This document shows positions 48,544-64,000 of a DNA stretch of 64,000 nucleotides, piece by piece. Location of the stretch: the NCBI GenBank assembly GCA_013314775.1, contig JABUFB010000001.1, forward strand, positions 186,001 through 250,000, read 5' to 3'. The first letter of the stretch is position 1. Each line of letters opens with the position of its first letter. The position numbers were made by a program, and so were the translations under genes. Under the pieces are notes generated by a model, which saw only the letters and a list, made by a program, of their open reading frames with translations, did no database searches and had not been told where the DNA came from. This stretch comes from Armatimonadota bacterium (GTDB taxonomy: Bacteria > Armatimonadota > Zipacnadia > Zipacnadales > JABUFB01).

Positions 48544-48570
48544 GCAATCGTACGCCGGATCTGCATGAAG

Positions 48571-48604
48571 AAGGGCCCCAGCACGTGTCGCCGGGGCCCT
48601 TTTC
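48571..48604. terminator. Terminator of the rpmH-jag operon, probably bidirectional
   Basis: AGGGCCCC-AGC...GC-CGGGGCCCT forms a strong stem ending in TTTT on the plus strand, and TTCTTC on the minus strand. It sits between jag and the end of the phage late genes, three bases from the holin stop. Confidence 0.92.
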
Positions 48605-48606
48605 CC

Positions 48607-48897
48607 TCACCCTTGTTTTCCCGTCGCCAGGTCGTAGACCGCAGCCTCAACGCTGTTCCTGTCCACCCGCACACCACGCCGCGTCGCCTGCTCCTGGACG
48701 TACCGCATCTTTACCTCGCCATTGCCGGACCCGTAGATCTGCTCAGCCGCTTTCACAAGCTCCAGCAGCAAGGCGCGCAGCCGTTCATCGTTGATCTTCT
48801 CCACATACTTCCTGCTTACCCGAAAGGCCAGCCCGAGAAGCAGCGCGCCCAATCCCGGCACTGCAAGCACCCGCACATACTCCAGCACATTCTCCAC
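48607..48897 (-). CDS. Phage holin, LLH family
   Basis: 96 residues from a GTG start with GGAGAGG upstream. One N-terminal membrane span (about 8-27) then LLLELVKAAEQIYGSGNGEVKMRYV and VRVDRNSVEAAVYDLA, the signature of the LL-H type holins. It would permeabilise the membrane late in infection to release a lysin; no lysin gene is in the window. Confidence 0.85.
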   Translation of the reverse strand: MENVLEYVRVLAVPGLGALLLGLAFRVSRKYVEKINDERLRALLLELVKAAEQIYGSGNGEVKMRYVQEQATRRGVRVDRNSVEAAVYDLATGKQG

Positions 48898-48919
48898 TCC
48901 ACATCACCTCTCCAGTTTC

Positions 48920-49216
48920 TCAGCAACCCGCGGATCGTCCGGCCTTCTCACGCGCCAGCCGAATCAGAACCGCAAGATGGTACGCCGCATACAGGAACGC
49001 ATACCCGAAGAACACGCCCCATAGATAATCCCAACACGGCCTTTCGTACCCCATTGTCACCACCACCGACACCCGCCACGCCGTCAACAGAACCAGGCAA
49101 AACCGGCACGGGCCATTCACCCGCATCCGGGCCAGCAGAAACCCCACCGATATGATCCCACCTAACAGCAGCAGCTCAAGCAGCGCCACCGCCGGCAGGC
49201 ACGGGTTAGTGATCAT
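48920..49216 (-). CDS. Small phage membrane protein
   Basis: 98 residues with about three hydrophobic segments (8-30, 38-57 and 66-88). Cys-containing (NGPCRFCLVLLTAW). The start overlaps the preceding gene by 11 bases. Located next to the holin, it may be an accessory holin or spanin-like protein; no family recognised. Confidence 0.7.
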   Translation of the reverse strand: MITNPCLPAVALLELLLLGGIISVGFLLARMRVNGPCRFCLVLLTAWRVSVVVTMGYERPCWDYLWGVFFGYAFLYAAYHLAVLIRLAREKAGRSAGC

Positions 49217-49499
49217 CGTCCAGTTCCTCCATGGCCTGGCTGAAACTCGTCTCCAGCCGGCGCTTCACCTGGCGCAGCAGGGCCGTGCCGCATAGCGACG
49301 CGAAGAACGCCGTCTGGAAATCATGGTCCACCGCGTGCGCCACGCCCACGCAAATCACAAGTTGCCCCACGAACCCCATGTGCAGCCGGTGCCCACGCAA
49401 GTGGGGCATCACGATGACCCGTGTCCCCAGGGCCGCGTTGGTCAGCGCCCCAAGTATTCCGCCACCGGTCAGTGCAACCCAGGACGGGATTTCGTGCAT
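49206..49499 (-). CDS. Small phage membrane protein
   Basis: 97 residues from the ATG at 49497-49499, with GGGGAG seven bases upstream. Hydrophobic segments at about 8-27 and 40-75, then a charged helix (LRQVKRRLETSFSQAMEEL) and an acidic end. The layout resembles holin-like phage membrane proteins. Function unknown. Confidence 0.7.
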   Translation of the reverse strand: MHEIPSWVALTGGGILGALTNAALGTRVIVMPHLRGHRLHMGFVGQLVICVGVAHAVDHDFQTAFFASLCGTALLRQVKRRLETSFSQAMEELDDDH

Positions 49500-49541
49500 C
49501 ACATGGCTCCCCTCGACACGCGATCCCAGGTACCGGCTCTC

Positions 49542-50249
49542 CTACCTGAGAAGTCCCTCGCGCTCCCAGTCATACTCAAAGTCTGCGCTCTCCATCCCGT
49601 CGTTCGTGGCCGCGATCACGAAGCCGTCTCCCCTGTGATGCGCCAACACGACCCACGTGAATCCCGGGCTGTCCGACGTGACCCTCAGATCACCCGGCAC
49701 CCGGAATTCGCCCGACGCCCTGTGGTCCACCACAATTTCCACGGTCTCATTCGCGCCCACGTCCTCCTCGACGCCCGACCCGCTTACATGCCCGAACACC
49801 AGGCCGTGCCGGTCGCGTTGAGCCCCCTCGCAGGCGTTGTCCACCGCCACCACGGACCCGTCCGTGGCCAGTTCGATCGTCCCCAACAGAACGCTCCTCC
49901 CAGGACCCGGAGGCGCAAGTTGGGCGACGAAGGTCACGCTCCCATCCGGAGCAGACCCCTCCCCCGCCACCGCATACACGTAATTGACCGCGCCGTTCGT
50001 GAGCCCAGCGATCCCCGCGGATGTCCCGGTTCCACACCAGCACCCGCCGATGAGTCCCGTGCCCTCCGTGACCGTCCTGGTCTCCTCAATCATCCACCCT
50101 GCATGCACCCCGTCCCCCAGCAGGTGTCGCACCATCTCGCCAAGCGCCCGGTCAAGCGTATCCGCCAGGCGGTTGTGATGCCACGGTTCCACAAGGTCGT
50201 CCGTCTGCACATCCGTCGCCAGTCCGTAATTGGGCGTCGTTCCCGCCAT
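49542..50249 (-). CDS. Phage tail/receptor-binding-like structural protein
   Basis: 235 residues with GGAGG upstream of the ATG. Residues 10-50 resemble a short helical tail attachment segment (VEPWHHNRLADTLDRALGEMVRHLL), followed by a beta-rich, Gly/Thr/Val-rich body (GTGTSAGIAGLTNGAVNYVYAV, VNDYV-like strands). This is the composition of distal tail or fibre proteins. No domain recognised. Confidence 0.7.
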   Translation of the reverse strand: MAGTTPNYGLATDVQTDDLVEPWHHNRLADTLDRALGEMVRHLLGDGVHAGWMIEETRTVTEGTGLIGGCWCGTGTSAGIAGLTNGAVNYVYAVAGEGSAPDGSVTFVAQLAPPGPGRSVLLGTIELATDGSVVAVDNACEGAQRDRHGLVFGHVSGSGVEEDVGANETVEIVVDHRASGEFRVPGDLRVTSDSPGFTWVVLAHHRGDGFVIAATNDGMESADFEYDWEREGLLR

Positions 50250-50285
50250 ACTCTTCCGCCTCCATCGCCTGCCGGAATCGGCTTC

Positions 50286-50513
50286 TCATCTCGCCGCGTA
50301 GCTGGTCGCCGAATACCGCCCGCGCCCGTACAACGCGGCGCGGTGTACCTCGCCCGTCCCATCAGCACGAACCAGAAAACTCCCATTCCCGGAACCCGTC
50401 ACCTCGCGCCGCACATCTCGGTTCACCGCGACACTCGCCCCTCGTTGTCCGGGTCGCACAAGCCGCTCGATCTCCTGTCTCAAGAGCTTGATCGCCCACA
50501 TGCTATGCCCCAT
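50286..50513 (-). CDS. Small hypothetical phage protein
   Basis: 75 residues; its ATG overlaps the end of the hub-like gene (stop TAG of that gene lies inside the first codons), with a second ATG twelve bases later. Amphipathic helix first (WAIKLLRQEIERLV), then a basic, Gly-rich part. No family recognised. Confidence 0.6.
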   Translation of the reverse strand: MGHSMWAIKLLRQEIERLVRPGQRGASVAVNRDVRREVTGSGNGSFLVRADGTGEVHRAALYGRGRYSATSYAAR

Positions 50514-52779
50514 CCCCCAGCCAGCGCGCTTTCACCTGCGTCGTCGCAACCTTGCCCGAGTCCTTCCGCACCCGGTGAGTCACTTGCTCCACCCGATACT
50601 TCTGGTCAACCGCGCCCACCGTCTCCGCACCTTTGACCCGGATCACCTGCCCAACTCGGACCCCCGGCTCCAGCGGCATCGTCACCACAACATGTTCCGG
50701 CCGGGCTGACCGCTCCCGGAACAGTTCCTGGGCCAGCCGGTTCACCTCGGCTTGTGTGGTATACGTCTCCAACGCCGCGACCTCCATCTTCCGCCAGCCG
50801 ACATACACCTGCGCCTGCGCGTCAAACAGCGACGCCGGCTCGTAGATCACCGACCGCACCGGCCGGCCGTCCGGCCCAACTCCCAGCACCGCCACGTAGT
50901 TCGCAAAGTCCCCCTGGAACAGGCTTTCCCGCGGCCGCTCGATCGACAGCACGGCGCCGGGAGCATCAGGCTCGGGTGCCAGCTCGGCCCGGGTGTACAG
51001 CTCCCACCGCACTTCACTCCCGCAGGCGCCGGTCAGCGAACCGTCATGTTCCGTCAGGTTCTCCGCTGTCCGCGCATTGCGGCAGTGACGACACGCCTTC
51101 ATCAGCACGCCGTCCTCCCGGAAGAACACCGCGGCCCGGTAGTCGAACGCAGCCACTTCATCCAGGAACTCCGCCCACGTGCGCCCCGGTTCGGCCTGCC
51201 AAAGGGGCCGCTCAAAGCTCCCCGTGCTCAGCACCGTCCCCGTGTCTTCGAGCTCTCGCATCGCCTCGGGAATCCCGCACCGATCAAGCACCCACGCGAA
51301 CACGTCCTTTACCGCCCAGCCGTCGAACACCGGTGCCCGGCCGTCGCACTTCTCGTCCCGCAGTCGTACCATCGGATCGATGATCGCCGCCAGCATCCGG
51401 CTCTTCGGTCCCGCAAGCACCGCGGGCTCCGGCTCAACCAGGTACCCGTCCGCCACTGCCTCATACTCAGCCGTCCCGTCAGCCATCAGCCAGCCCAGTT
51501 CCAGCGACGCCCGCCGGTACTCCCCCGCATTCGCATGCTGCCCTAGCGAGTTATCCAGCTCAAGCGTGAACGCCGTCGCCCGGCCGTCATTACCTGACTC
51601 GCCCCACACCCTCTCGACATCCGCGCTGATGTCCGTCCATGCCGCCGCCCCGCTGTCAATGACCTCCGGGAATTGCCCGATCTGCACGCTGTACAGCTCC
51701 GGCGATACCGCCGTCTCGAACGCAGGCTCCGCAACCTGGTGCACATGCGGCGACATCGTGCATCGCCAGGCCCGTTCCGTTGCCCTTAGGTCCCCCCTCA
51801 GCGCCGTACTGTCCACTGCGGTCACTCCGGCCGAAACATTCCCATACCCATCTCGCACGGGCTGTGACCGGGCGTTCAGGATCAACTCCCCCGCACACGC
51901 CTCAGTGTCATACCCTGCCTCGATCGGCTCGCTGTCGATCTGAACCGCCGCCATTTTTATCGGGAGCACCGAGAACGCCCACTGTCCTGCGTTGTGCCAC
52001 AGCCCCAGGTGCCCCGCGCCCACCGAAACTTGCTCTGGCCCGGTCGGACAAACCCACAGGTCTTCGCTGAACCCATCCGTGGAAACAACCAGCCTCCCTC
52101 TCCACACCCCAATCCAGATCAGCAGCCGACCATCCGGTCCGTACCCCTCCAGCCGGCCAAACCGCGCTCCTCTGCCGGCGTTCGCTACACGTTCCCACAC
52201 TCCGCCCTGGCGCCGCTTCACAATCGGGCTCCCGCCGTACGGTAGCACCACCGACAACTCATGCGCGGACCCCAGCCCAAGTTCGATCGTGGTGCCTGGC
52301 GGATCGCCTCCCCAGTCGTGGTCAGGCCGCGGGGCCGTCCGGTACAGCGACACGCACACCACGGGGTTCGGCGGCAGCGTGAAACGGCTCACCGCACCCG
52401 TGCGCTCTCCCTGCCTGCCGTCGTACTGGTACAGCCGCACCTCCTCGCCCATCCCCAGACCAGTGAGCGGTAACCAGCTCCCTCCCCTGAGGTCGAAATG
52501 CTCCGTCCCCAACGCCTGGGTGGTATCCAGGAACGGGCGACAGATCACGCAGTTCAGGTCGGGGTGCTCCAGCACCATCGCCGTCGGCACAGGCGAAGCG
52601 TCACCCAACCCAGCCCCAATACCCAGTTCCGCCGGGCTAATCCGGCTGCAGACCACCGCCCCAACTCGCCACAGATCCGCGACCACATCGTACCGCCCGA
52701 ACCCGTCGTACCGCTGAATGAAGCGCTGGCCCGGCTCATAAAGCCGCGCGCGCGCTATCGGATGCTTGCGCTCAGACAT
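50503..52779 (-). CDS. Phage baseplate hub / tail-tip-like protein
   Basis: 758 residues from the ATG at 52777-52779 (GGAGAG about seven bases upstream); an ATG at 52818 is also in frame. The N-terminal half is a beta-rich laminin-like or lectin-like domain (LLIWIGVWRGRLVVSTDGF, GAGHLGLWHNAGQW). The second half has the layout of late-control/gp27-like hubs: TAFTLELDNSLGQ, VKDVFAWVLDRCGIP, TWAEFLDEVAAFDYRAAVFFREDGVLM, and EPGVRVGQVIRVKG near the end. It also has a HCRN...CxH-like Cys pair. Assignment rests on position and fold-like pattern. Confidence 0.7.
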   Translation of the reverse strand: MSERKHPIARARLYEPGQRFIQRYDGFGRYDVVADLWRVGAVVCSRISPAELGIGAGLGDASPVPTAMVLEHPDLNCVICRPFLDTTQALGTEHFDLRGGSWLPLTGLGMGEEVRLYQYDGRQGERTGAVSRFTLPPNPVVCVSLYRTAPRPDHDWGGDPPGTTIELGLGSAHELSVVLPYGGSPIVKRRQGGVWERVANAGRGARFGRLEGYGPDGRLLIWIGVWRGRLVVSTDGFSEDLWVCPTGPEQVSVGAGHLGLWHNAGQWAFSVLPIKMAAVQIDSEPIEAGYDTEACAGELILNARSQPVRDGYGNVSAGVTAVDSTALRGDLRATERAWRCTMSPHVHQVAEPAFETAVSPELYSVQIGQFPEVIDSGAAAWTDISADVERVWGESGNDGRATAFTLELDNSLGQHANAGEYRRASLELGWLMADGTAEYEAVADGYLVEPEPAVLAGPKSRMLAAIIDPMVRLRDEKCDGRAPVFDGWAVKDVFAWVLDRCGIPEAMRELEDTGTVLSTGSFERPLWQAEPGRTWAEFLDEVAAFDYRAAVFFREDGVLMKACRHCRNARTAENLTEHDGSLTGACGSEVRWELYTRAELAPEPDAPGAVLSIERPRESLFQGDFANYVAVLGVGPDGRPVRSVIYEPASLFDAQAQVYVGWRKMEVAALETYTTQAEVNRLAQELFRERSARPEHVVVTMPLEPGVRVGQVIRVKGAETVGAVDQKYRVEQVTHRVRKDSGKVATTQVKARWLGDGA

Positions 52780-52824
52780 GCCCACTCTCCCGCGCCCATT
52801 CTCGCTGTGCCGGCGCATCGTCCC

Positions 52825-53130
52825 TCAGATGGCGCTTTCTTCCGTCCACGTTTCGCCGTCGTCACAAGAGCAGTAAAACACTACGTGCGGCCATCGCGGG
52901 ATACCCACGAGCAGCGGCGACCCTTGTCCCACCAGTTTCACCAACGCCGCCCTCTGGTCGCACGCAACAGGCGCGACGCTCTTCTCCTCCGAGCCGTCCC
53001 CGTACTCCAGCCAGGTCTCATTCGCCAGGTTCAGCCGTCGGATCACGTACTCCCCGCCTCGGATTCCCACCACGTACACAATCCCGTTGTGCTCAACCGC
53101 GCTCGGGTGCGCAAGCAGCGCCTCCGCCAT
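52825..53130 (-). CDS. Small phage protein with BNR-like motif
   Basis: 101 residues. The sequence ends VVFYCSCDDGETWTEESA, which looks like a BNR/Asp-box (S-x-D-x-G-x-x-W), and VEHNGIVYVVGIRGGEYVIRRL resembles one sheet of a beta-propeller. Possibly the detached end of the larger protein upstream, which carries a similar BNR-like stretch in its last 120 residues. Confidence 0.65.
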   Translation of the reverse strand: MAEALLAHPSAVEHNGIVYVVGIRGGEYVIRRLNLANETWLEYGDGSEEKSVAPVACDQRAALVKLVGQGSPLLVGIPRWPHVVFYCSCDDGETWTEESAI

Positions 53131-53133
53131 CTC

Positions 53134-55971
53134 TCAAGCCTCCCCGGAACGCCAGTCATCCCTCGACACACTCACACGGATCTGGGAGTCGCCCCTCTGC
53201 ATCGCAAGCACCAGCCCCCCAGCGCCGTCCTTGGCCAGTGCGGGCTCGTCGCAGATCCCCTCCTTGGTCACCTGCGTTCCGCCGTCCCAGTTCCCGGCCA
53301 TCCCCATCCTGCGGTGTACTCGGATATTGCCCTCGTCGCAGTAGGCCGCGAAGATCTGGCCAAATCGGTCCTGCGCAAGACACGGGTTCCCCCACAGCCG
53401 ATCAGCCTGCACCGCAGTCGGGACCGATCGCCTCGGACCCACATCAAGCCCCGCCGCATCCGCCAGGAAAGGCACATCGGCAACCAGCGTGAACCTGCAC
53501 CCAGGCGCGCTCGCTGGCGAGACCAGCCGGACGTCCCGCACTCCCGTATACAGTCCCACGCCGCGATACGGCGCCGCAGCCGTCTCCGCCTTCAGCTTCG
53601 GCACGAGACTCACCCGCACCGCATCGCCCAACGGCACTTCCTCACACGGTCCGCGGCTTCCCGCCGGGATCGTCACCCGCCGCGTCTCCCAGGTACCGTC
53701 ACCAAGCTCGCAGTCCACATCCACGGTGAACGTCAACGGTGCCACGTATCCGGGCTCAAACACCGCCTTCAGTTGCGCCAGCCCAAGTTCCCGGCCGATC
53801 TCGGGCAGCCCCTCGAAATAGCCCATCCCGTGCCCCGCCGTGAACATCGGCGTTCCGTCACCGTCGAACCTCCCGAAACCTTTACCGTCCCCAAACCGGT
53901 CCACGTGTCGAGCTATCCACCGGGGAGCATTCGTCGGCTGAGCGGGTCCCCTCTGCCAGAGAAAGTCATCGGTTTCGTCGTAGATATCGGGCCGCCAGTG
54001 GTACCGCACCATTCTCGCTGACACCAGGTCCCTGGCCGGCACCAACACCCGTAGCATTCGCCGCCCGGTCCCACCCACCGTTGGCGTCCGAAAGAACGTC
54101 CGGCAGTCCATCGCCCTTGCATCGCCGAATACAGCGGCGCACTGTTCGCAGTACCCCTGTTCAGCCACTCCTGTTCCCGGATCACGGTGCGCAGGTCCGC
54201 CGCAATACGGGCACAGAAGGCCCGTTACGCTGGTCACATCGCACTGCCCGTCCCTGGGCCCGCACCGGGTCTCCCCAAACACCATCGGCTCCCCGAATTC
54301 CAGCCCCATCCGCGCCGCCTCCGGGTGCTCCTCGTCAATCGCCGCATCCCCGTGGGCAACCACATTCCCGTGGACCTTGCCGCCCAGGAGCATCTTGGCT
54401 TCCGGGTAATAACCCGTCGCCCGATACAGCCCTGGCGCCGTTTCCCAATTCTCGAACGGTTGTGTCCCCAGCACCAACCCCGTCGCGATGATCCCCTCTG
54501 GCTCTACCAGCGCATACTCCCGCACCACCGGTCCGCCGTACACAAGTTCCTCCAGGTTCTCCACATACCGGAACTTCGGCAGCGTTCCCTCGGTCTCCCA
54601 GCCCCCGTAACTCGCCTCCACTGTCCCGAATCGTTCCTGCGTCTCCGGGTCCTCGACCCAGATGCTCCCCGGCACCCAGGGGAAGTTCTTGTGCCCGAAA
54701 TCTCCCTTACGCCATGCCTCGGGCCGGTACTCCTCGAGCCACGACGAGTACATGCGCGCACCCAGCACCACGTCCGAATAAGGAGCGCCCAGCACCGGCA
54801 CGCTGCCCCAGGTTTCATCGTGGATAACCAACTCGCCGCCAAATCCACTCGGTGGCAACTCCGCCCACCAGAAACCGCCCTCATCCGTGGTCGCCACAGT
54901 CCCCACGATCGTGCACGTCTCCAGATCCAGCACCTTGATAGCCATTCCCACCGCCGGGACCCCCGGCCTCAGGTACACTCGCCCCGCGTAGACGAGGTCC
55001 TCGAGCGGGTACTCCTCAAGCGTCCCCATCACAACCGTGCTCGTAAGCCCCGGTTCAAGCGTCACGACCTTCCGCGCACACCCAAACGTGCTGTCCCACG
55101 TGCCCCAATCGGTCCGCCGGAACTGAACCACCGAATGCTCGCATGCCGGCAGCCCGCTGATAGTCACCTCGCCGGATGGAGGGATTTCATACGCCTGCCC
55201 CGCATCATCCATCGTCCCCACCAGCACCCACGCCCCCGGAGTGCCCACGATCCGCAGGCTCGAACTCAGCAGGTCAATCACTGCCCACCGGCCTTCGCTC
55301 GCAACCGCCTTCACACCCCGATGTACCGCGTACGTCACCTGCGCAGTCCGCTCCGGCGCCGTGTATACTGTCTCGGGGCAGTCGTCACGCCGGTCACCCT
55401 GTCGCTGGTAGATCGCTCCGTGCCCTTTCGGTGCGATGAACTCCCACTCGCCGTTCTCGTCCGTCTCGATAGGCGTCCGCACCACCGGCCCCTCAACCCA
55501 TGTCTCGAGTTCCTCGGAGTAGACCAGCTCGTTGTACTCCTGGCTGTCCCAGAACAGGACGCGTCCGTCACTCTCCGTTGCCAGTTCGGTCTCTAGGCTC
55601 ACCTGGGCCCCCTGAATCGGAGCCCCGTTCTCCAGGACGCGTCCCTGCAGCCGGTAGCCCATCACGAACGTCTCCGCGAAGGGTGCCGCGCGAAACTCGG
55701 TCCCCTGCACTCGCACGCCCCAGTACCCGTCATCCACCAGCACCGCATACCGCTCAACCGGCAGGCCGCGCCACATCTCTTGCACCAGCCATACCCGCAC
55801 TCCGGCCAGCGCCACGTCGGGCCCTCGCGCCTTGAACACCTGACCGCTGATGGTCCCGTCCGTAACTTCAAACGCGAACGAGCCATCCTCGTCCGCCTGC
55901 GTCCCTGCCACCACTGTCCCACTCGCCGCTCCCAGCCCCACCGCGTCCTGTAGCTTGAATCGACAGATCAT
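53134..55971 (-). CDS. Large beta-rich phage tail protein with carboxypeptidase-regulatory-like domains and zinc ribbon
   Basis: 945 residues with GGAGG seven bases before the ATG. Repeated beta-sandwich segments have the look of carboxypeptidase-regulatory domains (ADEDGSFAFEV, LQGRVLENGAPIQGAQVSLETELATESDGRV, YAGRVYLRPGVPAVGMAIKVLDLETCTIVGTVATTDEGGFWWAELP). A zinc ribbon follows near 610-650 (CPYCGGPAHRD...YCEQCAAVFG). The last 110 residues carry BNR-like strands (CLAQDRFGQIFAAYCDEGNIRV, EPALAKDGAGGLVLAMQ). Likely a long tail fibre or tip protein that contacts host surface polymers; that role is inferred. Confidence 0.75.
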   Translation of the reverse strand: MICRFKLQDAVGLGAASGTVVAGTQADEDGSFAFEVTDGTISGQVFKARGPDVALAGVRVWLVQEMWRGLPVERYAVLVDDGYWGVRVQGTEFRAAPFAETFVMGYRLQGRVLENGAPIQGAQVSLETELATESDGRVLFWDSQEYNELVYSEELETWVEGPVVRTPIETDENGEWEFIAPKGHGAIYQRQGDRRDDCPETVYTAPERTAQVTYAVHRGVKAVASEGRWAVIDLLSSSLRIVGTPGAWVLVGTMDDAGQAYEIPPSGEVTISGLPACEHSVVQFRRTDWGTWDSTFGCARKVVTLEPGLTSTVVMGTLEEYPLEDLVYAGRVYLRPGVPAVGMAIKVLDLETCTIVGTVATTDEGGFWWAELPPSGFGGELVIHDETWGSVPVLGAPYSDVVLGARMYSSWLEEYRPEAWRKGDFGHKNFPWVPGSIWVEDPETQERFGTVEASYGGWETEGTLPKFRYVENLEELVYGGPVVREYALVEPEGIIATGLVLGTQPFENWETAPGLYRATGYYPEAKMLLGGKVHGNVVAHGDAAIDEEHPEAARMGLEFGEPMVFGETRCGPRDGQCDVTSVTGLLCPYCGGPAHRDPGTGVAEQGYCEQCAAVFGDARAMDCRTFFRTPTVGGTGRRMLRVLVPARDLVSARMVRYHWRPDIYDETDDFLWQRGPAQPTNAPRWIARHVDRFGDGKGFGRFDGDGTPMFTAGHGMGYFEGLPEIGRELGLAQLKAVFEPGYVAPLTFTVDVDCELGDGTWETRRVTIPAGSRGPCEEVPLGDAVRVSLVPKLKAETAAAPYRGVGLYTGVRDVRLVSPASAPGCRFTLVADVPFLADAAGLDVGPRRSVPTAVQADRLWGNPCLAQDRFGQIFAAYCDEGNIRVHRRMGMAGNWDGGTQVTKEGICDEPALAKDGAGGLVLAMQRGDSQIRVSVSRDDWRSGEA

Positions 55972-56008
55972 CCGCCCACCTCCAGGTGCCGGCGGTGCAG
56001 CCGCTCAT

Positions 56009-56701
56009 CTACCGCGCCAGTTCCAGCCGCATCTCGCGCACTTGGTCCCTGCTAACACCGAACTCCACCGCATCCACTGCCTCCATGCACTCCTCGGCAC
56101 AGTGCCCGACGGGCCTCTTGCGCACACTCAACGCGCCCTCGCTCTCATCGAGCAGCGCTCCCTCGGCATGCGCATCTGCCCCCGTCCGTCCAACTCGCCT
56201 GCCCGGCACAATTTCATCGCCACGCCTCAACCGGTCTCGTGCCTTCGGTGCCGTCTCCGCCGTGTCCCGTCGCCACATCCACCCATACCCGGGCCGGCCC
56301 GGATGCGCGATGCCCCCGGGACGACCAGTCACCGCGCGCCCAGTCTCCGGTCCTGGTTCCCCCCGCGGTCCAGCCCATTCTCCAGCTTGCCCGGCCTCCT
56401 GTGCTCGGGCCTCGGACAGAACGCCCCCCCGCTCTGTCACTTCCTCATCGCTCTGTGCCCACTTCGGCCTGCAAGCCCTCCCCTCGCCGTGCCTCACCCG
56501 GGCCGGCCGACCCAATCTCCGCGCTTGTCGCAGCACGCTCCTGTGGCTCCGCAATCCCCGCATTGCTATCTCGATGCCGTCTCTTCCGCGCCACCCCGGC
56601 CACACAGTCGCTTCCGCGTCATCTCGCTCTCGAGCGACATGCCCCACCGTGCCCTCGCCCGCGCAGAACAAAGCCCCGTGCAAGGGTCCCTCCCACCGCA
56701 C
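56009..56701 (-). CDS. Short protein at the tape-measure position (function unknown)
   Basis: 230 residues if read from the GTG at 56701; the frame opens at 56788, inside the T reading frame. Arg/Gly/Glu-rich with PKWAQSDEEVTERGGVLSEARA, GYGWMWRRDTAETAPKARDRLRRGDEIV and a better-conserved-looking end (GHCAEECMEAVDAVEFGVSRDQVREM). In tailed phages the gene after G/T is the tape measure, normally far longer and rich in long helices and hydrophobic segments; this one is neither. Coding status is supported by the open frame and position only. Confidence 0.5.
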   Translation of the reverse strand: MRWEGPLHGALFCAGEGTVGHVARERDDAEATVWPGWRGRDGIEIAMRGLRSHRSVLRQARRLGRPARVRHGEGRACRPKWAQSDEEVTERGGVLSEARAQEAGQAGEWAGPRGEPGPETGRAVTGRPGGIAHPGRPGYGWMWRRDTAETAPKARDRLRRGDEIVPGRRVGRTGADAHAEGALLDESEGALSVRKRPVGHCAEECMEAVDAVEFGVSRDQVREMRLELAR

Positions 56702-56727
56702 GGGGCATCTCTCTACTCTGCCCTGCC

Positions 56728-57048
56728 TCACGTCAGCCCTTTGCCATCCCCGCTCGCCGGCCATAGCTCCACCCGCCACCACGGCCACATCTCCAGAGCC
56801 TCGATTCCCGGTCTCATCCCCGCCGCGTCCACCAACCGCTGGTCACAACGCCCCAACGCAACCAGCCTTACTGCGAGGCACGAAAGCGCCCGAACCGCCC
56901 TCGGCCCCAGCACCCGTTCCAGTGCCGCCTGACTTGCGAAATCCGTCCCCTCGCGCACCCGGGGCACATCCGCTGGCCCATCGTCAGCACTCACCAGCCC
57001 AACTGGGCTTATCCCCGCGGTCCCACGCAGGTTCGCCAGCGCCCTCAC
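56728..57048 (-). CDS. Tail assembly chaperone, T part (expressed by -1 frameshift from G)
   Basis: 106-codon frame that begins exactly where a -1 slip on the heptamer at 57048-57054 would place the ribosome (first codon GTG at 57048). It has no ribosome site of its own. Sequence: VRALANLRGTAG near the start, ALERVLGPRAVRALSCLAVRLVALGRCDQRLVDAAGM, and WPWWRVELWPA near the end. As in lambda gpGT, the fused product (about 265 residues) would be made at low frequency beside G. Confidence 0.75.
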   Translation of the reverse strand: MRALANLRGTAGISPVGLVSADDGPADVPRVREGTDFASQAALERVLGPRAVRALSCLAVRLVALGRCDQRLVDAAGMRPGIEALEMWPWWRVELWPASGDGKGLT

Positions 57049-57524
57049 TTTTTTTTCGCGTCATCCAGTGCTTGCCTTCCCGCGCGATCACGCAGGTTCA
57101 CTTTCGCCAGGCATTCCTCGATCCACTCACCAATTTCAGGGCTCAGCTCGGACAGGAACACCTCTCTCTCGCACGGCTCAAGCGTCCCCGCCTCCCGGAC
57201 TCTCACCCGGCCGTCCTCACCGCGCTCCGGCAGTGCGAAATCCACCAGGCACCGCTCTAGCTCATAGAGTCGCATCGCCCACAGATCATACTGTCTCCGA
57301 ACGCTCAGCACCCGCGCGTGGTCGTCCAGTTCATACTCCTCAACCGTCCCCACGCTCTCGCGCTCCAGGCTCTCCCGGTACGTCAACGGGCGCACCACGA
57401 CCCACGCCTCGCAGTCATCCCCGGGGTATTCGAAGCGCACCGCTTTGCCGGGCTGGGCGACGTGTGTCACCCATTGGCATCGCTCAGCTTCGCCCGCGAT
57501 AACGCCGCCGTCCCCCTCACTCAC
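57045..57524 (-). CDS. Tail assembly chaperone, G part
   Basis: 159 residues from the GTG at 57522-57524, which overlaps the tail tube stop (GTGA). Motifs: FEYPGDDCEAWVVVRPLTYRESL, YELDDHARVLSVRRQYDLWAMRLYELERCLVDF, EREVFLSELSPEIGEWIEECL and the lysine run AKKK just before the stop. This is the position and length of lambda gpG-like chaperones. The lysine codons AAA AAA AAG form the slippery site. Confidence 0.8.
   Translation of the reverse strand: MSEGDGGVIAGEAERCQWVTHVAQPGKAVRFEYPGDDCEAWVVVRPLTYRESLERESVGTVEEYELDDHARVLSVRRQYDLWAMRLYELERCLVDFALPERGEDGRVRVREAGTLEPCEREVFLSELSPEIGEWIEECLAKVNLRDRAGRQALDDAKKK
57048..57054 (-). promoter_or_regulatory. Programmed -1 frameshift site A AAA AAG
   Basis: The minus strand reads GCG AAA AAA AAG TGA in the G frame, with eight consecutive A. 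The heptamer A AAA AAG is the most efficient bacterial -1 slippery sequence. A slip of one base moves the ribosome to GTG AGG GCG of the T frame, which stays open for 106 codons. Downstream structure was not evaluated by folding. Confidence 0.8.
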
Positions 57525-58426
57525 GCAAGCACCACCGGGGGCGTCACCCCATCTGCGCTTCCCAGCGCTACGAAACTCACTTCCTCCACGATCCTCCGTG
57601 CATGGGATCCCGGCAGCCCCAGGTCCGATCCCGAATACAGAACCCGTGGCAGATGGATCGTCGCCACAGTCACGTCGCGCTCCAGCGTGAGCACCAGCGC
57701 GGCCTCCTGCCCCGACACGAAGTCCCCATACACCCCGGCATCCACGAAGTCCCGCGACAGGCTCCCGGTGCACCGCAACCCCGCCAGGTTATATAGTTGC
57801 GTCGGGTTGCCGGTCTCTCCCAGCCGCAAGCCCTCCGCCGGATCCTCCAGCATCGTGTTGATCTCGATCCGGATAGCCTCGCAGTTCACATCCTCGGCCA
57901 CCGCCTGGCCGCCCACCGAAAGCTCAACCTTTGCTTCTCGGAACAGGTACGGTGCGGACAGAGGCATCACCGGATTGGCCGTTCCACCCCTCTCCATCTT
58001 CAGGCCCGCGACTTCCAGTGTGCACGTCACCGGCTCGCCTTTCACCAGGTCGAATACCGCCTTGGCCACCTTCAGATCCGTCAGCTTCTTGACCTCATGT
58101 ACGCAGTCGATCAGCGCCGACGCCCACTTGCCCTGGTTGTCCGCGTCTCGGTCCTGGATCCAGGCGAACAGTTGGCTCACGCTGCCCGGGATCACTGGAA
58201 AACGCAGCCTGCCCTCAGCCCACTCTCCTGCCGAATAGTAGCTGGTCTGGTAGTCCTTCCCGTCGGCCGTGTCCAGCATCACATAGTTCTTCTTCCACTC
58301 AACCGTGTCCACCGGGGTATCGCTGTCCCCCATCAGCGGCAGCCAGGTGCTCGGAGCCTGGTACACACCTTTCTGCGCTTGCAGTCCGAAACCGAATGCC
58401 CCGTCCATCGAAAGGGCCACCGACAT
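57521..58426 (-). CDS. Phage major tail tube protein
   Basis: 301 residues from the ATG at 58424-58426 with GAGGGTG upstream; an ATG at 58525 is in frame but unsupported. AFGFGLQAQKGVYQAPSTWLPL is typical of the start of tail tube proteins, and LRFPVIPGSVSQLFAWIQDRD, GEPVTCTLEVAGLKM, RIEINTMLEDPAEGL and RDVTVATIHLPRVLY read as the beta-strands of a tube fold. Position just before the G/T cassette supports the call. Confidence 0.8.
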   Translation of the reverse strand: MSVALSMDGAFGFGLQAQKGVYQAPSTWLPLMGDSDTPVDTVEWKKNYVMLDTADGKDYQTSYYSAGEWAEGRLRFPVIPGSVSQLFAWIQDRDADNQGKWASALIDCVHEVKKLTDLKVAKAVFDLVKGEPVTCTLEVAGLKMERGGTANPVMPLSAPYLFREAKVELSVGGQAVAEDVNCEAIRIEINTMLEDPAEGLRLGETGNPTQLYNLAGLRCTGSLSRDFVDAGVYGDFVSGQEAALVLTLERDVTVATIHLPRVLYSGSDLGLPGSHARRIVEEVSFVALGSADGVTPPVVLA

Positions 58427-58899
58427 TCGCACACCCTCTTTCTTGCGATCCAGGCATAACCGCCTGACATTCTCGTGCTCACTCTGCGACCTACGCCCGG
58501 CCTTCCCCCAATGGGAGACTGGCACTCGAACTCAAGCCCCGTCCCAGTTCGATGCCTGCACCCGATGCGCCGTCGCCCGCGGTCGTCTATGAACCCCGCA
58601 CAGGCATCCATCCTGCGACCGCACGCAGTTGCTTCGGGGTGCCGGTCCCCGGTGTCTGCCTTCATCGTCCCTCATCGTCGTCCGTCGTCGGCCCTTGCCC
58701 TCTGTGGTGCGCGGGCCCGTGCCGGGTGATCGCTATCAGTCACCCACCCGTCCTTGCCGTTCAGCCCCGCAGGGGCGCTGGCTCTTTGCCACCAGCGTGA
58801 GCTGGTGGCCCGTGCGGTCCGCAGTTGCCTTTCCCCCTCGTCCTGAGCAGCCTCACCGCGAAGGAGAGGGGGGCAGGGGGGAGAGGCAGCCTCTTCCAC
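58427..58899. other. Non-coding gap with repeat A inside the late operon
   Basis: 473 bp between tail completion and tail tube genes, unusual for a phage late operon. It contains repeat A (58762-58808) and a purine/pyrimidine-rich run near 58830-58895. Short ORFs here look like shadows. Parts of 58670-58730 resemble 59660-59700 (CGTCGTC-GTCGT...GCGGGC). Confidence 0.5.
58762..58808 (-). repeat. Dispersed two-hairpin repeat A, copy 2
   Basis: Minus-strand reading is CCACCAGC-TCAC-GCTGGTGG, CAAAGAGC, then GCCCC/GGGGC, the same order and spacing as 31312-31356. About 45 bases with only a few differences. Confidence 0.75.
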
Positions 58900-59595
58900 T
58901 CACCCCGCCGCATCTGCCGCCGGCTCCTGCGCCCGCAGCCCCACCATATCCAGCCGCACCACCCGCAGCCCCGATAACCGCTCGTCCACTGCCGCTTGCT
59001 CTCGCGGGGCGTAGTCAACCCCAACCACCTGCGAGTACCAGCAGGTACCCGCCAGGTAGGGGTCGCGCATCAGCAGGCTAAACAGCCGCCCGACTTCCTC
59101 GAGCAGCCGTAATTCCGCTTCCTCACCCTCGCGCTCTTGTCTGACGTAGTACACGCTGCTGTGGTACTCCTGGCTGTACGAGCGGTTTGTGCCCCCCATC
59201 ACTGGCTGCTCAAGTCGCGTCGGGGCAACGACAACACACGGGAACCCTACCGTGCCGGGCTGTGGGGCCAGTTCGGGCTTCCCGCGACCCACCCACGCCA
59301 ATTCAGGCACAATATCGCTGAGCAGAACCACCCGAGCGCCGGCATCCACCGCATAGTCCCCGGTTACGCTGCTGTCCAGCATCACCTGCGTCCGCCCGCC
59401 TAAGCCGGCGACGGTGCGAATCTCTCCGGCCTGCCGGTCATCCTCCACCCGCACACTGTCGCCCACTCGCAGGATCTTGTTGCTCCCTACTTCGAGCACA
59501 TTGCCACCGCTCACATCCGCACTCAACCTCACCGCACCTCGGCAAAGGTCGCAGATGGCCCCGAGTATCTCTGCATGATGGTGCATGCCCGGCAT
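58900..59595 (-). CDS. Phage tail-completion / head-tail joining-like protein
   Basis: 231 residues. N-terminal GMHHHAEILGAICDLCRGAVRL, a beta-rich middle (KILRVGDSVRVEDD, VMLDSSVTGDY), then GFPCVVVAPTRLE and YHSSVYYVRQEREGEEAELRLLEEVGRLFSLLM, which resembles tail terminator/completion proteins (gpU- or gp17-like). Position between head closure and tail tube agrees. The start may lie at the ATG of MHHHAEI, three codons in. Confidence 0.65.
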   Translation of the reverse strand: MPGMHHHAEILGAICDLCRGAVRLSADVSGGNVLEVGSNKILRVGDSVRVEDDRQAGEIRTVAGLGGRTQVMLDSSVTGDYAVDAGARVVLLSDIVPELAWVGRGKPELAPQPGTVGFPCVVVAPTRLEQPVMGGTNRSYSQEYHSSVYYVRQEREGEEAELRLLEEVGRLFSLLMRDPYLAGTCWYSQVVGVDYAPREQAAVDERLSGLRVVRLDMVGLRAQEPAADAAG

Positions 59596-59759
59596 CGCTC
59601 ACTTGCCTCCCCGCTCTGTCCACACGCTATTCATATCCGCCATCCATCCCTGCATCTGCCGATCGTCGTCTGTCGTACGCGGGCTCGTGCCGACCAACCC
59701 GCTTGCGGTCACGTTGCCGACCGTCCGCGGTTGCTCCCGGCTCCGGTGCCGGCCCTCTG

Positions 59760-59779
59760 CCGTCAGCGTGAGCTGGCGG
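59760..59779 (-). repeat. Degenerate copy of repeat A hairpin, copy 3
   Basis: CCGTCAGC-GTGA-GCTGGCGG on the plus strand keeps the loop and most of the stem of repeat A but lacks the second hairpin. It lies in the 189-bp gap after the head-closure-like gene. Confidence 0.45.
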
Positions 59780-59784
59780 TGTTG

Positions 59785-60330
59785 CTACCCCTCTCGCGCC
59801 CTCAGATCCAGCCTCACATGATGTCCTTTGCCCGCTTCGTCTCGCACCCCACACACCTCGTACACGCTCACCACGTACACCGGCTCGCCTGCCGTGTGCC
59901 CGGTCGTCATCGGCCCATCCACCGCAGCTTCATCCCCATCGCAACTCACCACCAGGCGCAGCTCCGAGTCCACACCCGCTCCCAACTCCACACGCAACCC
60001 CGCAACGAGACCCGCTTCATCGGACACCCGGAACACCCTCGAACCCGCCGCAACATCCTCTGCCAATTCAAGCCGCACCACCCGCTCCACCAGCAGGTCA
60101 CCCGCGCGCACATCCGCAGGCTCCAGGTACGCCACATGCGTCGCCTTCTCAGCCTGACCGATCACCGTCTCGCCGTACTCCGAACTCACGGGCTGTAGCG
60201 TGCACGGAACGTCCTCAGTCACCAGCACATACCGGGGTCTGCGTGGGCTGCCAAGCGTCGACACATCCACCTGCGGCCGACGTACGCTCACCACATCGCG
60301 CAGCAGTGTCAGGAAGCTACCGTCTCCCAT
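59785..60330 (-). CDS. Phage head-closure-like protein
   Basis: 181 residues. Starts with FLTLLRDVVSVRRPQ, has a VTEDVPCTLQPVSSEYGETVIGQAEKATHVAYLEP strand set similar to head-tail joining/head-closure proteins (Phage_H_T_join-like), and a long beta-rich insertion. Position right after the connector supports it; the assignment is moderate. Confidence 0.65.
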   Translation of the reverse strand: MGDGSFLTLLRDVVSVRRPQVDVSTLGSPRRPRYVLVTEDVPCTLQPVSSEYGETVIGQAEKATHVAYLEPADVRAGDLLVERVVRLELAEDVAAGSRVFRVSDEAGLVAGLRVELGAGVDSELRLVVSCDGDEAAVDGPMTTGHTAGEPVYVVSVYEVCGVRDEAGKGHHVRLDLRAREG

Positions 60331-60356
60331 TCTGTGGGCCTGCCTTTCCGGACTCG

Positions 60357-60401
60357 CGAAAAGGGGCTCTCAACCCGCGTCCGCGAGCCCAAGAGCCCCT
60401 T
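60357..60401 (-). terminator. Rho-independent terminator inside the phage late region
   Basis: Minus strand: AGGGGCTCT, a 21-base loop, AGAGCCCCT, then TTTT-type run at 60357-60361. It lies between the connector gene and the head-closure-like gene. Confidence 0.75.
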
Positions 60402-60439
60402 GGTCCGTGTCTGACTTCTCGTCTGTCTTCCAGCCGTCC

Positions 60440-61081
60440 TCAGATCGCCGCCAGCCGCAACTTCCGGTAAGAGCGCGCTGCGCTCCGGGCATCCGTCACC
60501 CAGCGCTCGATCACCCCGGCATGTTCCCCACCCGATCCGTAGTCCACTGCATAGTCCCCGATCTGCAGCCGCTCAACAGACCCCCGGTCACCCGCGCACT
60601 CGCTCAGGATTTGCGCCGCAACCAGCCGCGCCTGGGCCATCCGGATCTCCTGCGGGGCCCCGTTGTAGCCCCAGTCCGCGGTGACCTCAACATTCGCCAG
60701 ACCCTCCGGGAACTCGCCCGACCTCAGCCGGATCACCGCCTCCGGGTAGTACACAACGTACTCTTCGGTGCTCAGCTTGCGCCCGCCCACCACCACCGAA
60801 TGAACCGCCAGCAGGGGCGAGACACCCAGCGGTCCCAGCATGAGCCGACCCTCGCCCTGGCCGTCACACATGACCACTTCGTCCGAATGAAGCAGAAAAT
60901 CCCTGCCGGCCTCCGCATCGATCGCCGCCATGCTCACAGGCATCAGCCCGCGGACCCTCAACTCCAGCGCGTCACTGTCACCAATTGCCGATACGTCATG
61001 CCCCGCCAGCAATCGAAACACATCATCCACCGTGCAGTACCACTCGAACAGCCCGGTCACGAACACTCCCTCTGCACTCAT
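60440..61081 (-). CDS. Phage head-tail connector protein
   Basis: 213 residues from the ATG at 61079-61081, overlapping the preceding stop (ATGA). FEWYCTVDDVFRLLAGHDVS at the N-terminus, GRDFLLHSDEVVM, YYPEAVIRL, NVEVTADWGYNGAPQEIRMAQARLVAAQIL and VERLQIGDYAVDYGSG are the usual gp6/gp15-type connector features. It bridges portal to tail completion proteins. Confidence 0.78.
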   Translation of the reverse strand: MSAEGVFVTGLFEWYCTVDDVFRLLAGHDVSAIGDSDALELRVRGLMPVSMAAIDAEAGRDFLLHSDEVVMCDGQGEGRLMLGPLGVSPLLAVHSVVVGGRKLSTEEYVVYYPEAVIRLRSGEFPEGLANVEVTADWGYNGAPQEIRMAQARLVAAQILSECAGDRGSVERLQIGDYAVDYGSGGEHAGVIERWVTDARSAARSYRKLRLAAI

Positions 61082-63942
61082 CCTGCCGACCACACCCCCT
61101 GGCTGTTGCGAGCCTGCACCCGCCAGAAATACACCTTGTTGCTCGCCAGTTCCACTGCCGACAGCGTCACCCGCGTCGCATCGGACTCCACCACGCCGCT
61201 GTCCCACACATCCGCAAGGCCCGCCGCCAGCTTATCCCGGCTCGTCGCCACCAGCACCCGGTATGCCGTCTGCGGATACCCACTCGGGTCCGCATACTCC
61301 CAGGACAGCTCCGGCGCCGGGTCCAGCACCGCAATCGGGTTTGTCTCTCCCTCGACTTTCAGACTGCCAACCACAGGCGGCGGAATCGCCGTTGCACGGC
61401 GCACTCTCCACGCATACACGCGCGGCGTCTCGGCCCCCGCGTCATGCCGGCTCAACACGAACCGCAGCCGTATCGCGTCCATCGTCAGGCTGGACAGCAG
61501 CACCCCGCCCCACCTCACCTGCGCATTCACGCTGTCCCCCAGCGCATCACAATCCGCCGCCGAGAACCCCGGCAGGACCTCCTCCGTCTCCGCATCCACC
61601 ACCTCGACCCGCACCGATCCCGCCCCCTGGGTCGAGTTCAGCCGCAGCGTCCCCCAGCCACCCACGGGCCGTTCCAGGATTGGCGTCTCGAAGAAACCAC
61701 TCGTCGCCGTTGCCTGAAGCTCGTACCATGCCTCTCCATCCAGCCGCACCCATCCGAAGTTCACGAAGTCCCCGGCCCCGTAGTAGTACACGCGCCGGTC
61801 GCCAAGCTGGAAGGGCCGACCGGGCCCTAGTCGTGTCGGTTCTCCCGGCAACTGACCTTGCGGGAGCCACTCACTGTGCGAAGCGAAGGTTTGGAAATGA
61901 ATCCCGTCCTCGCTCACATAGCAGTACACACCCGACGTCGCCGCGGTCGCGGTGTCGCTGTAAAGACCGATGCAGTCCGACTGCCCCAACACCGCCACAT
62001 CGCACGAATGAACCAGCGGAGCCGGCAACGGCGACACCATGTTCCCGTGCGGAAGCGGCCTCATGCTCCGCAGGTCGCCGCCCTGGATGCCGATCAAAGG
62101 GCGCATATCCAGCGCGTAGTTGTACGATCGGTGGTTGATCGACTTCCCCCGAGCATACCCCACGAATCGCCGGCTCTCATCGGTCGCGTACGGGTTGTCA
62201 GTGATCCGCCACCCGGCATCGCGGTTGGCCCATGCGCTCGAAGCGTTCCCGTCCGGCAGAACCGGCTCGGCTCCCCCGATGATCGGAGAAATCGGATTCC
62301 CCCGCCAGAAATGCTCCTCGCGGGAAAAGCTCCAGCGGTCCTCGGCCCCGGTCAGCAGGTACGCCATGAAATGATCCGGGTGCGATGTCTGCCCGATGTA
62401 CACCAGTGACCACAGCCCGTCGCCACCCTGCAGCACCGCCGTTGGATACGAAGAGGACACCGGCCCGTCCCCCTCCGGAGCCGGACGCAGGTCATCCTGA
62501 GCCATGAACGGATTGGACTTACCCGCGGGCGGGACCTCGTCCACCCACTTGATCCGCCCCGTCACCGCATCCCAACTGCCCACAACGTACCCCAGACGCG
62601 CCACTCCATCCGGACCCGTGCCCGTCAACAGCGCGGTGATCTCCTGCCTGGACTCGTCGTAGCATACGGGGATCGGCCACGAGCCCACCGTCTCACGCCA
62701 CGTCCCCGCCTTGCACAAGTCAGCCTTCGCCGCCGCAGGGGCCTGGCACTTCGTCGGCCGCGTCTTCTGCCGCGCGACGCCGCTGCTGCGCCACACCTTC
62801 GTGCTCTGCCCGTTGCCCGCAACCACCATGAAGTTGTCCGCGAAATCCGGTCCATCCCCGGCCGGACCCCTCCGCAGCCGCTGGTAAGTGGTCGGCCCAT
62901 CCAGCTCAACACGCTCCAGAAGCACACGGCAGGACAGCGTATTGTCCTCATGCACCGACGGCTTCCCGTAGCACGCGCCCCAGTCCAGCGTGGAGTGATT
63001 CGCCCCATCCATGTACACCGTCCGCCCACGGTCATACCGCAGCATGTTCGGAACCAGGTTCTCAGCGCTGTTGGCTCCCACGAATTGCCACTCAAGCTCC
63101 GTGAAGAGCCGCGAGTCACCGTGGAACTCCCACAGCCACGCATCCGTGCTCATGTCTTCCATCCGCGTCCCGTACGACGTGGACCCGTATGACCGGCACC
63201 CCTGGATCCTGGCCCGGAAATCCACCACCGCAATACTGCCGGCTGCGGGAACCGCTGGCAGCGCGCTCTCTAGCGTGATCACCCGCGTCGTCGCGTCATA
63301 CGAGGCCACCTTGAGCCGCCGTCCGCCGCAGTTGGAGCCCAGGAACGTGATCATCGCACCGGCCCAGTAATTCGTCCCATACTCAGCCCCGAGATCCGTC
63401 TTGAACTGGGTCGTCGTGTTCCCCGCGTCAGCCACCACCGTGAGCCGTCGCCCACTGCCCCACTGGTCGAACACATTGTCTGCACCGGTCGGGTAGTGAA
63501 CATAGTCGACAGGTCCGATACGCACCACCCGACCCATCGGTGTGTCGGCCATCGGAATGTGCAGTCGCTGCCGGTACGTGCACGGAGGGTTCATCACCCG
63601 TGCGTCGAACACCGGCGTTCCAGCAAAATACGCACCCACCCGCCGGCTCTGGGTGTATCCCGCCAACACCCGCAGATCAGCGTATGTCGCCTCGTTGATG
63701 TCCTGCAGGTAAGCCGCCCTGCCCGCATCCACGTTTAGCGGCCAAGGGACGCTCAGCGGCACGCGGTCATCCTCGCTCAGATCGTGCCGCGGCATCCCCA
63801 GCAGGAAACTCAGCCGTCCCTGGTGCCTGGCCCCGTCGTCCACAAGACAGTATCTGTCCTGCGCCCCGGGCGCATAGAACGTCCCGTCTCCCGCCGCAAT
63901 CTGGGCGTCATACTGCCCGTCGAAATGCGCATACAGGGTCAT
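61078..63942 (-). CDS. Very large phage structural protein with lectin-like and fibronectin-like regions
   Basis: About 954 residues from the ATG at 63940-63942; an ATG at 63987 is in frame and the frame is open to the window edge, so the true start could lie outside. The N-terminus TLYAHFDGQYDAQIAAGDGT resembles LamG-like concanavalin folds. The middle has YWAGAMITFLGSNCGGRRL and several propeller-like Trp-rich strands (WSLVYIGQTSHPDHFMAYLLTG). The last 110 residues (PELSWEYADPSGYPQTAYRVLVAT, KVYFWRVQARNSQGVWS) match fibronectin-III-like domains. It lies where capsid or decoration genes are expected, so a capsid fibre is one reading. Confidence 0.7.
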   Translation of the reverse strand: MTLYAHFDGQYDAQIAAGDGTFYAPGAQDRYCLVDDGARHQGRLSFLLGMPRHDLSEDDRVPLSVPWPLNVDAGRAAYLQDINEATYADLRVLAGYTQSRRVGAYFAGTPVFDARVMNPPCTYRQRLHIPMADTPMGRVVRIGPVDYVHYPTGADNVFDQWGSGRRLTVVADAGNTTTQFKTDLGAEYGTNYWAGAMITFLGSNCGGRRLKVASYDATTRVITLESALPAVPAAGSIAVVDFRARIQGCRSYGSTSYGTRMEDMSTDAWLWEFHGDSRLFTELEWQFVGANSAENLVPNMLRYDRGRTVYMDGANHSTLDWGACYGKPSVHEDNTLSCRVLLERVELDGPTTYQRLRRGPAGDGPDFADNFMVVAGNGQSTKVWRSSGVARQKTRPTKCQAPAAAKADLCKAGTWRETVGSWPIPVCYDESRQEITALLTGTGPDGVARLGYVVGSWDAVTGRIKWVDEVPPAGKSNPFMAQDDLRPAPEGDGPVSSSYPTAVLQGGDGLWSLVYIGQTSHPDHFMAYLLTGAEDRWSFSREEHFWRGNPISPIIGGAEPVLPDGNASSAWANRDAGWRITDNPYATDESRRFVGYARGKSINHRSYNYALDMRPLIGIQGGDLRSMRPLPHGNMVSPLPAPLVHSCDVAVLGQSDCIGLYSDTATAATSGVYCYVSEDGIHFQTFASHSEWLPQGQLPGEPTRLGPGRPFQLGDRRVYYYGAGDFVNFGWVRLDGEAWYELQATATSGFFETPILERPVGGWGTLRLNSTQGAGSVRVEVVDAETEEVLPGFSAADCDALGDSVNAQVRWGGVLLSSLTMDAIRLRFVLSRHDAGAETPRVYAWRVRRATAIPPPVVGSLKVEGETNPIAVLDPAPELSWEYADPSGYPQTAYRVLVATSRDKLAAGLADVWDSGVVESDATRVTLSAVELASNKVYFWRVQARNSQGVWSAG

Positions 63943-64000
63943 TGTTCCCGGCCCGTCCTCCGGCCGGATCCGTCCTCGTGCACCCATCGCATACAGAGCA

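Follow-up and report, generated by a model that had tools for sequence, protein, structure and literature searches.

A short gene, here called X, lies directly behind the putative tail chaperone genes of a phage-type cluster in Candidatus Zipacnadia (WS1, Armatimonadota), in the position that a tape-measure gene would take, and comparison with relatives shows what is, to judge from its conserved position and conserved end, a real gene. Our favoured reading, to which we give moderate confidence, places X in the tape-measure slot of a particle that is passed on vertically and resembles a gene transfer agent (GTA); the tail would be very short, and X its minimal ruler or plug. Beyond what an earlier note on this DNA had guessed, X is predicted to be disordered, is conserved mainly at its C-terminal end and varies in length across a class-wide GTA-like system. 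The stretch analysed, referred to below as the window, comprises 64,000 nucleotides (G000:C1:186001-250000) of a draft genome of 6.1 Mb, and coordinates are those of the window.

The cluster occupies about 21 kb of the minus strand, from 48607 to beyond the window end (contig position 255702, equivalent to window position 69702), with rnpA-yidC-jag on one side and an M16 peptidase gene on the other. Its genes are ordered as terminase, portal, a weak protease match, capsid, a 1170-aa protein, head-tail adaptor, two unassigned proteins, tail tube, G, T, X, a 945-aa protein, a 101-aa protein, a hub-like protein, a 235-aa protein, two 98-aa proteins and a holin-like protein (Table 1). Capsid, protease, portal and terminase lie outside the window, beyond the 1170-aa gene; the terminase was recognised by a match to phrog_2 (2e-17), the portal to phrog_12 (1.4e-65) and the capsid to phrog_1623 (8e-84). 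The 1170-aa protein, encoded between capsid and adaptor, has a Rha78A-type Ig domain and may decorate the head or bind a receptor. Over the cluster (48001-64000) the GC skew is strongly negative (-0.17 to -0.31 per 2 kb); elsewhere in the window it lies between -0.14 and +0.06.

Table 1. Features of the phage-type cluster that fall inside the window, from the holin-like end towards the head genes.
Feature	Position	Strand	Match or remark
Holin-like protein	48607..48897	-	phrog_6918 2.1e-06
Second 98-aa protein	48920..49216	-	
Conserved protein, 98 aa	49206..49502	-	
Conserved protein, 235 aa	49542..50249	-	
Hub-like tail protein, 758 aa	50503..52779	-	phrog_52 1.2e-06
Conserved protein, 101 aa	52825..53130	-	
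945-aa protein with CarboxypepD_reg domains	53134..55971	-	directly after X
Protein X, 240 aa, tape-measure position	56009..56731	-	GTG start overlapping T stop
Conserved C-terminal end of X	56009..56035	-	REMRLELAR then stop
T-like frame	56728..57048	-	presumed -1 shift from G
G-like tail chaperone frame	57045..57524	-	GTG start overlapping tube stop
A8 slippery run	57049..57056	-	ahead of G stop
Tail tube protein	57521..58426	-	PF18906 1.5e-10; phrog_290 8.3e-08
Conserved protein, 231 aa	58900..59595	-	
Conserved protein, 181 aa	59785..60330	-	
Head-tail adaptor	60440..61207	-	phrog_442 6.9e-15
1170-aa protein with Ig_Rha78A_N domain	61078..64000	-	part inside window

The earlier note had seen a frame of about 230 residues (56009-56701), charged and rich in Gly and Arg, in the slot where a long tape measure would be expected after frames of the G and T type, and this description holds: the tube gene (PF18906) is followed by a G-like frame and, behind the A8 run at its end, by a T-like frame in the -1 frame. 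The mechanical open reading frame in the slot runs from 56009 to 56788 on the minus strand (259 aa; R 16%, G 17% and pI 9.3 for the whole open frame). Its best start is a GTG at 56731, the last two bases of which overlap the TGA of the preceding frame, so the best bounds are 56009-56731 and the protein has 240 aa. Base composition by codon position, a check that the note had proposed, is almost flat in X (0.75/0.60/0.72) and by itself does not mark X as a gene; the case for a gene therefore rests on the relatives.

The G-like and T-like frames had no family match in the profile searches; we named them for their position and frameshift, taking their roles to be those generally ascribed to lambda G and GT. 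The passage from G to T would be a -1 frameshift at the A run, and since a run of at least six A is kept in 17 of 20 slots (it is missing in L042, L043 and L047) a GT chaperone has probably been kept as well. X thus stands directly after a putative chaperone pair with its frameshift site, as tape measures do. In two slots (L043 of G013 and L042 of G010) the A run is missing and T-like sequence and X share one open frame, and in L042 the X frame also contains a T-like motif, which suggests a fusion or an assembly error.

Twenty slots were compared, that of the window and those of 19 relatives, of which L040 and L051 are near-identical. The X frames were picked by eye; in 19 slots, all except L052, no longer open frame follows G/T. 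Starts were chosen in 18, leaving out L042 and L043. The gene order of the cluster, tube-G-T-X included, recurs in the relatives' loci and an open frame of differing sequence occupies the X position in all 20, with lengths from 140 to 364 aa in the 18 with a chosen start. By tblastn, the X of the window had no match in the relatives' loci at 1e-3. The end of the protein is conserved: [LIV][ED]xxR precedes the stop in 16/20 X, encoded by differing codons (in L030 with one extra residue, W), and L040, L044, L045 and L051 end outside this motif. The end motif was scored by leaving each X out in turn, having dropped L051 (a duplicate) and L045 (an outlier with an unfitting end) and shifted L030 by one residue. 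For each of the 18 ends, between 0 and 5 of the 509 other ORF ends scored as high, counts that are upper limits because some true X ends are left among the controls; the lowest scores belonged to L028, L044 and L039. A W-basic motif near the N-terminus, for which the regular expression was chosen after looking, was found in 14 of 18 X and in 150 of 439 overlapping control windows.

Selection on X could be followed among three congeners, which gave dN/dS values of 0.61 (L034/L050), 0.34 (L034/L032) and 0.45 (L032/L050), and in one distant pair (0.51). In the two pairs tested, the codons that differ involve no stop in the X frame and two to three in each other frame. Some 63 codons in the middle of the L034 gene are missing from L032, in frame. 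Other cluster genes of the family-f3 genus gave values of 0.05-0.38 (from two f3 pairs, hub and g101 being compared in one of them only and T only in the second), and no gene tested in the module was under weaker constraint than X. In the class-level outlier L045 (G041) the slot is 3.1 kb long and also contains a 318-codon open frame, which judging from a motif may encode a ClpP/SDH-type protease.

Followed to where it stops beyond the window, the cluster showed no recognisable long tape-measure gene, in line with the earlier note: there was none among the 20 cluster proteins scanned against PHROGs, X included, the large ones being terminase, portal, capsid, the 1170-aa Ig-domain protein, the 945-aa CarboxypepD_reg protein and the 758-aa hub-like protein. 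The suggestion that a divergent long protein elsewhere plays the role found no support, either in the cluster or in genome-wide searches with two tape-measure families (PF10145 and PF20155), which matched nowhere in the 6.1 Mb and had control matches in 7 and 6 of 14 genomes. Profile searches with X itself returned no match in Pfam, PHROGs or NCBIfam, and 10 of the X proteins gave no tape-measure match in PHROGs. We also looked for phages related to the cluster that might have a long tape measure: of 50,697 phage records, none matched tube or hub at 0.01; the capsid matches 241 records, with 36% identity the best among the matches listed.

Another candidate was H126, a 132-aa gene flanked by X and the 945-aa gene where it occurs, in 13 of the 20 slots (e.g. 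L028:14081-14476). We rejected it as the tape measure: it is predicted to form a compact helical bundle (pLDDT 86) and is absent in 7/20 slots, including three of the window's family. It had no solved-fold match at E up to 0.001 and was not found in the window's own genome, by a search without a positive control.

The predicted shape of X is unusual for the position. AlphaFold2 (AF2), run on the single sequence from the window, gave a mean pLDDT of 41, scored 210 of the 240 residues below 50 and folded roughly the last 30 into a helical hairpin; with one sequence as input, such low confidence is weak proof of disorder. Proline and glycine make up 16 to 25% of the 18 X proteins vs 10% of lambda gpH, and the longest run free of both is 15 residues in the X of the window and 10-34 across the 18, compared with 92 in gpH. 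By both measures X lacks the long alpha-helical body that is looked for in tape measures. X is therefore predicted to be disordered apart from the C-terminal hairpin, and would not be a classical helical tape measure.

These properties are what would be expected if X were a genuine tail-module protein that measures nothing, whether a disordered tether, an assembly factor or a basic DNA-contacting protein, with the length of the tail set otherwise or the tail reduced to a connector and a few rings without a ruler. We give this explanation a substantial minority chance of being right: the predicted disorder, the basic charge and the richness in proline and glycine agree with it, as do the weak constraint and lengths down to 140 aa, but it does not account for the position directly after G/T, for a slippery run whose conservation implies a kept GT chaperone, or for a conserved C-terminal end combined with an in-frame indel in the middle, as in tape measures. 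The absence of a long helix and of a profile match, the weak constraint and the shortest X, which would leave almost no tail, all speak against a ruler. It also counts against our favoured reading that the window's family is without the endolysin gene and the H126 gene, which other families carry next to the cluster or in it. X is not to be filed in a classical tape-measure family, yet most likely works in that role.

Were X a ruler or plug, tail assembly could proceed as follows. G and the frameshifted GT chaperone would bind X; the C-terminal hairpin would dock at a tail-tip initiator, formed by the hub-like and/or the 945-aa protein, and start tube assembly; tube rings, only a few of them, would stack round the flexible basic middle up to the N-terminal end; and X would leave the tube ahead of the DNA.

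The length of such a tail may be estimated from the tape measure of TP901-1, for which published work gives a zero tail at 127 aa and 118 nm for ~810 aa, and describes both ends as essential and the middle as removable with a matching loss of tail length (PMC5099701). On this line 240 aa would correspond to ~16 nm, roughly four discs at the pitch of RcGTA, and not to the ~35 nm of the earlier note, which assumes that all residues measure; both estimates assume a helix, and X does not seem to form one. At 140 aa, the shortest X would come to ~2 nm, almost no tail, a warning that X may not measure or that the helical rule is inapplicable. Because its versions in relatives span 140 to 364 residues, X is relevant to the question of whether tail rulers have to be helical at all.

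The closest parallel in size is RcGTA, where the tape measure g11 has ~216 aa (a 113-residue helix followed by 83 and 20 residues) and the tail tube five discs (PMC7296036). The two systems share genes for a head-tail particle in the host chromosome and a short protein in the tape-measure position. They differ in that g11 begins with a long helix and assembles into a rod-shaped trimer, whereas X is predicted to be disordered except for the C-terminal hairpin. RcGTA also comes from another phylum. With the siphophages the cluster shares gene order (tube-G-T-X corresponds to lambda V-G-T-H, where T and H overlap too), a putative A-run frameshift site between G and T, and perhaps a middle that tolerates changes in length next to a conserved C-terminal end, the comparison being with lambda gpH and the TP901-1 tape measure. 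Unlike gpH, which has 853 aa, X has 240 aa and neither a long helix nor a profile match.

A search with the tail tube protein gave matches in 27 of 46 genomes of the class and 27 of 61 of the relatives set (the window's own genome being counted in both); the 15 genomes from elsewhere in the phylum had none. Distances between tube proteins followed those of the host markers yidC (Spearman 0.70) and rpsB (a moderate 0.48), in both cases over the 21 genomes with retrieved loci and with none of 2000 permutations as high, and in a tube tree of 26 genomes families f1, f3 and f6 each hold together. Family f4 does not, on account of G025, which stands apart in yidC as well, though not in rpsB. One bin may be mixed, since G035 carries rpsB twice and its tube hardly differs from that of G026. 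The chromosomal neighbourhood of the cluster is the same within f1, f3 and f6 and across f1/f6: its neighbour is yidC-jag in two f1 genomes (G000, G003) and two of f6 (G031, G026, with opposite gene orientation), and three f3 genomes have several flanking orthologues in common on the hub side. In G001, which belongs to the window's genus as its nearest relative and has a broken assembly without the tube, the hub-side end of the cluster lies on the contig that carries yidC, which breaks off within the 235-aa gene, and in G017 and G023 a cluster-type amidase is found 1 to 1.5 kb from yidC. Such an amidase (endolysin match, 2.9e-22) is located just beyond the cluster in f3 and f6 members as well as G041; in the window's genome the sole amidase match is a distant one, located elsewhere. 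In G041 there is also a second copy of the tail tube (L046, contig C53; 35-39% identity), with no other cluster gene detected by tblastn within its 20 kb locus.

If the cluster were a family of ordinary temperate phages, or what is left of them, and X a shortened or decaying tape measure, this would explain the complete set of head and tail genes, the holin-like gene, the patchy presence (none in three f2, two f5, two f9 and one f10 genomes) and the listing of cluster pieces as viral contigs in IMG/VR. We find this explanation improbable: tube distances track host markers, the neighbourhood is common to the families named above, no integrase or replication gene was found among the 20 cluster proteins and 10 flanking genes scanned in the window's genome (the ten being housekeeping or host enzymes), and dN/dS is low in the other cluster genes of the f3 pairs. 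Four of the five IMG/VR loci (L077-L080) moreover agree letter for letter with metagenome-assembled genome (MAG) contigs carrying the cluster (L061, L068, L071 and L072), one sequence lying within the other, so viral catalogues may be counting such loci as virus.

The comparative data show a cluster that is fixed in the chromosome, inherited with the host (congruence of the tube with yidC and rpsB, shared flanks) and under selection where this could be tested, among f3 congeners. It is a single ~21 kb chromosomal locus, as in the full endogenisation required of GTAs. Taken together, these genomic features correspond to the genomic part of the published GTA criteria, as set out in a paper in which three recognised GTA groups are evaluated (PMC9662315). 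The cluster has in common with Bartogtaviriformidae and Brachygtaviriformidae a gene set derived from tailed phages and inherited with the host, and differs from them in that their hosts are in other bacterial groups (PMC9662315). The cluster thus resembles a GTA and not a decaying prophage, and its particle may transfer DNA. Among the alternatives offered by the earlier note, "very short tail" and "domesticated" are favoured together, and the purifying selection seen in those cluster genes that could be tested, in f3 congeners, speaks against "tail-defective".

More speculatively, and as a fairly unlikely proposal in its full form, this class of uncultured Armatimonadota may have an independently domesticated GTA whose tail is set by a disordered ruler of 140-364 residues, held at its ends and otherwise drifting, a flexible tether and not a helical rod, of which the species provide a natural length series. 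Few GTA groups are recognised so far; if the vertically kept cluster is a GTA, it adds an independent domestication in an uncultured group and suggests that particle-borne DNA exchange has been selected in these bacteria. The literature searched on Armatimonadota, Zipacnadia and candidate division WS1 yielded no account of a GTA from this class, and in the available text of one paper on Zipacnadia (PMC10290634) the terms "phage", "virus", "viral", "prophage" and "gene transfer agent" are absent.

That X is no gene, simply a G+C-rich intergenic stretch open by chance, is very improbable: the flat codon-position composition and the lack of a tblastn match in any relative would agree with it, but not an open frame at the same place in 20/20 slots, ends conserved with different codons, the synonymous bias among congeners or a start coupled to the T stop. 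A structured RNA in the slot was dropped after folding of 771 nt gave a z of -2.1, with 1 of 20 shuffles as good; Rfam, searched over 48000-64000 at E up to 1, returned a single sub-threshold sRNA hit (48555-48609). A 9-bp hairpin just inside X, considered as a terminator, was dropped likewise: the window copy is alone in having it among 18 X (it falls outside the range of the terminator scan, which covers loops of 3-8). Unrelated inverted repeats occur in L037 and L045, and 15 copies are without any of at least 8 bp. Upstream of the tube gene, the intervals 58748-58891 and 58519-58576 have 16 short matches elsewhere in G001 (15 to the first and one to the second, 79-92% identity), and with this many matching places they look like a dispersed repeat.
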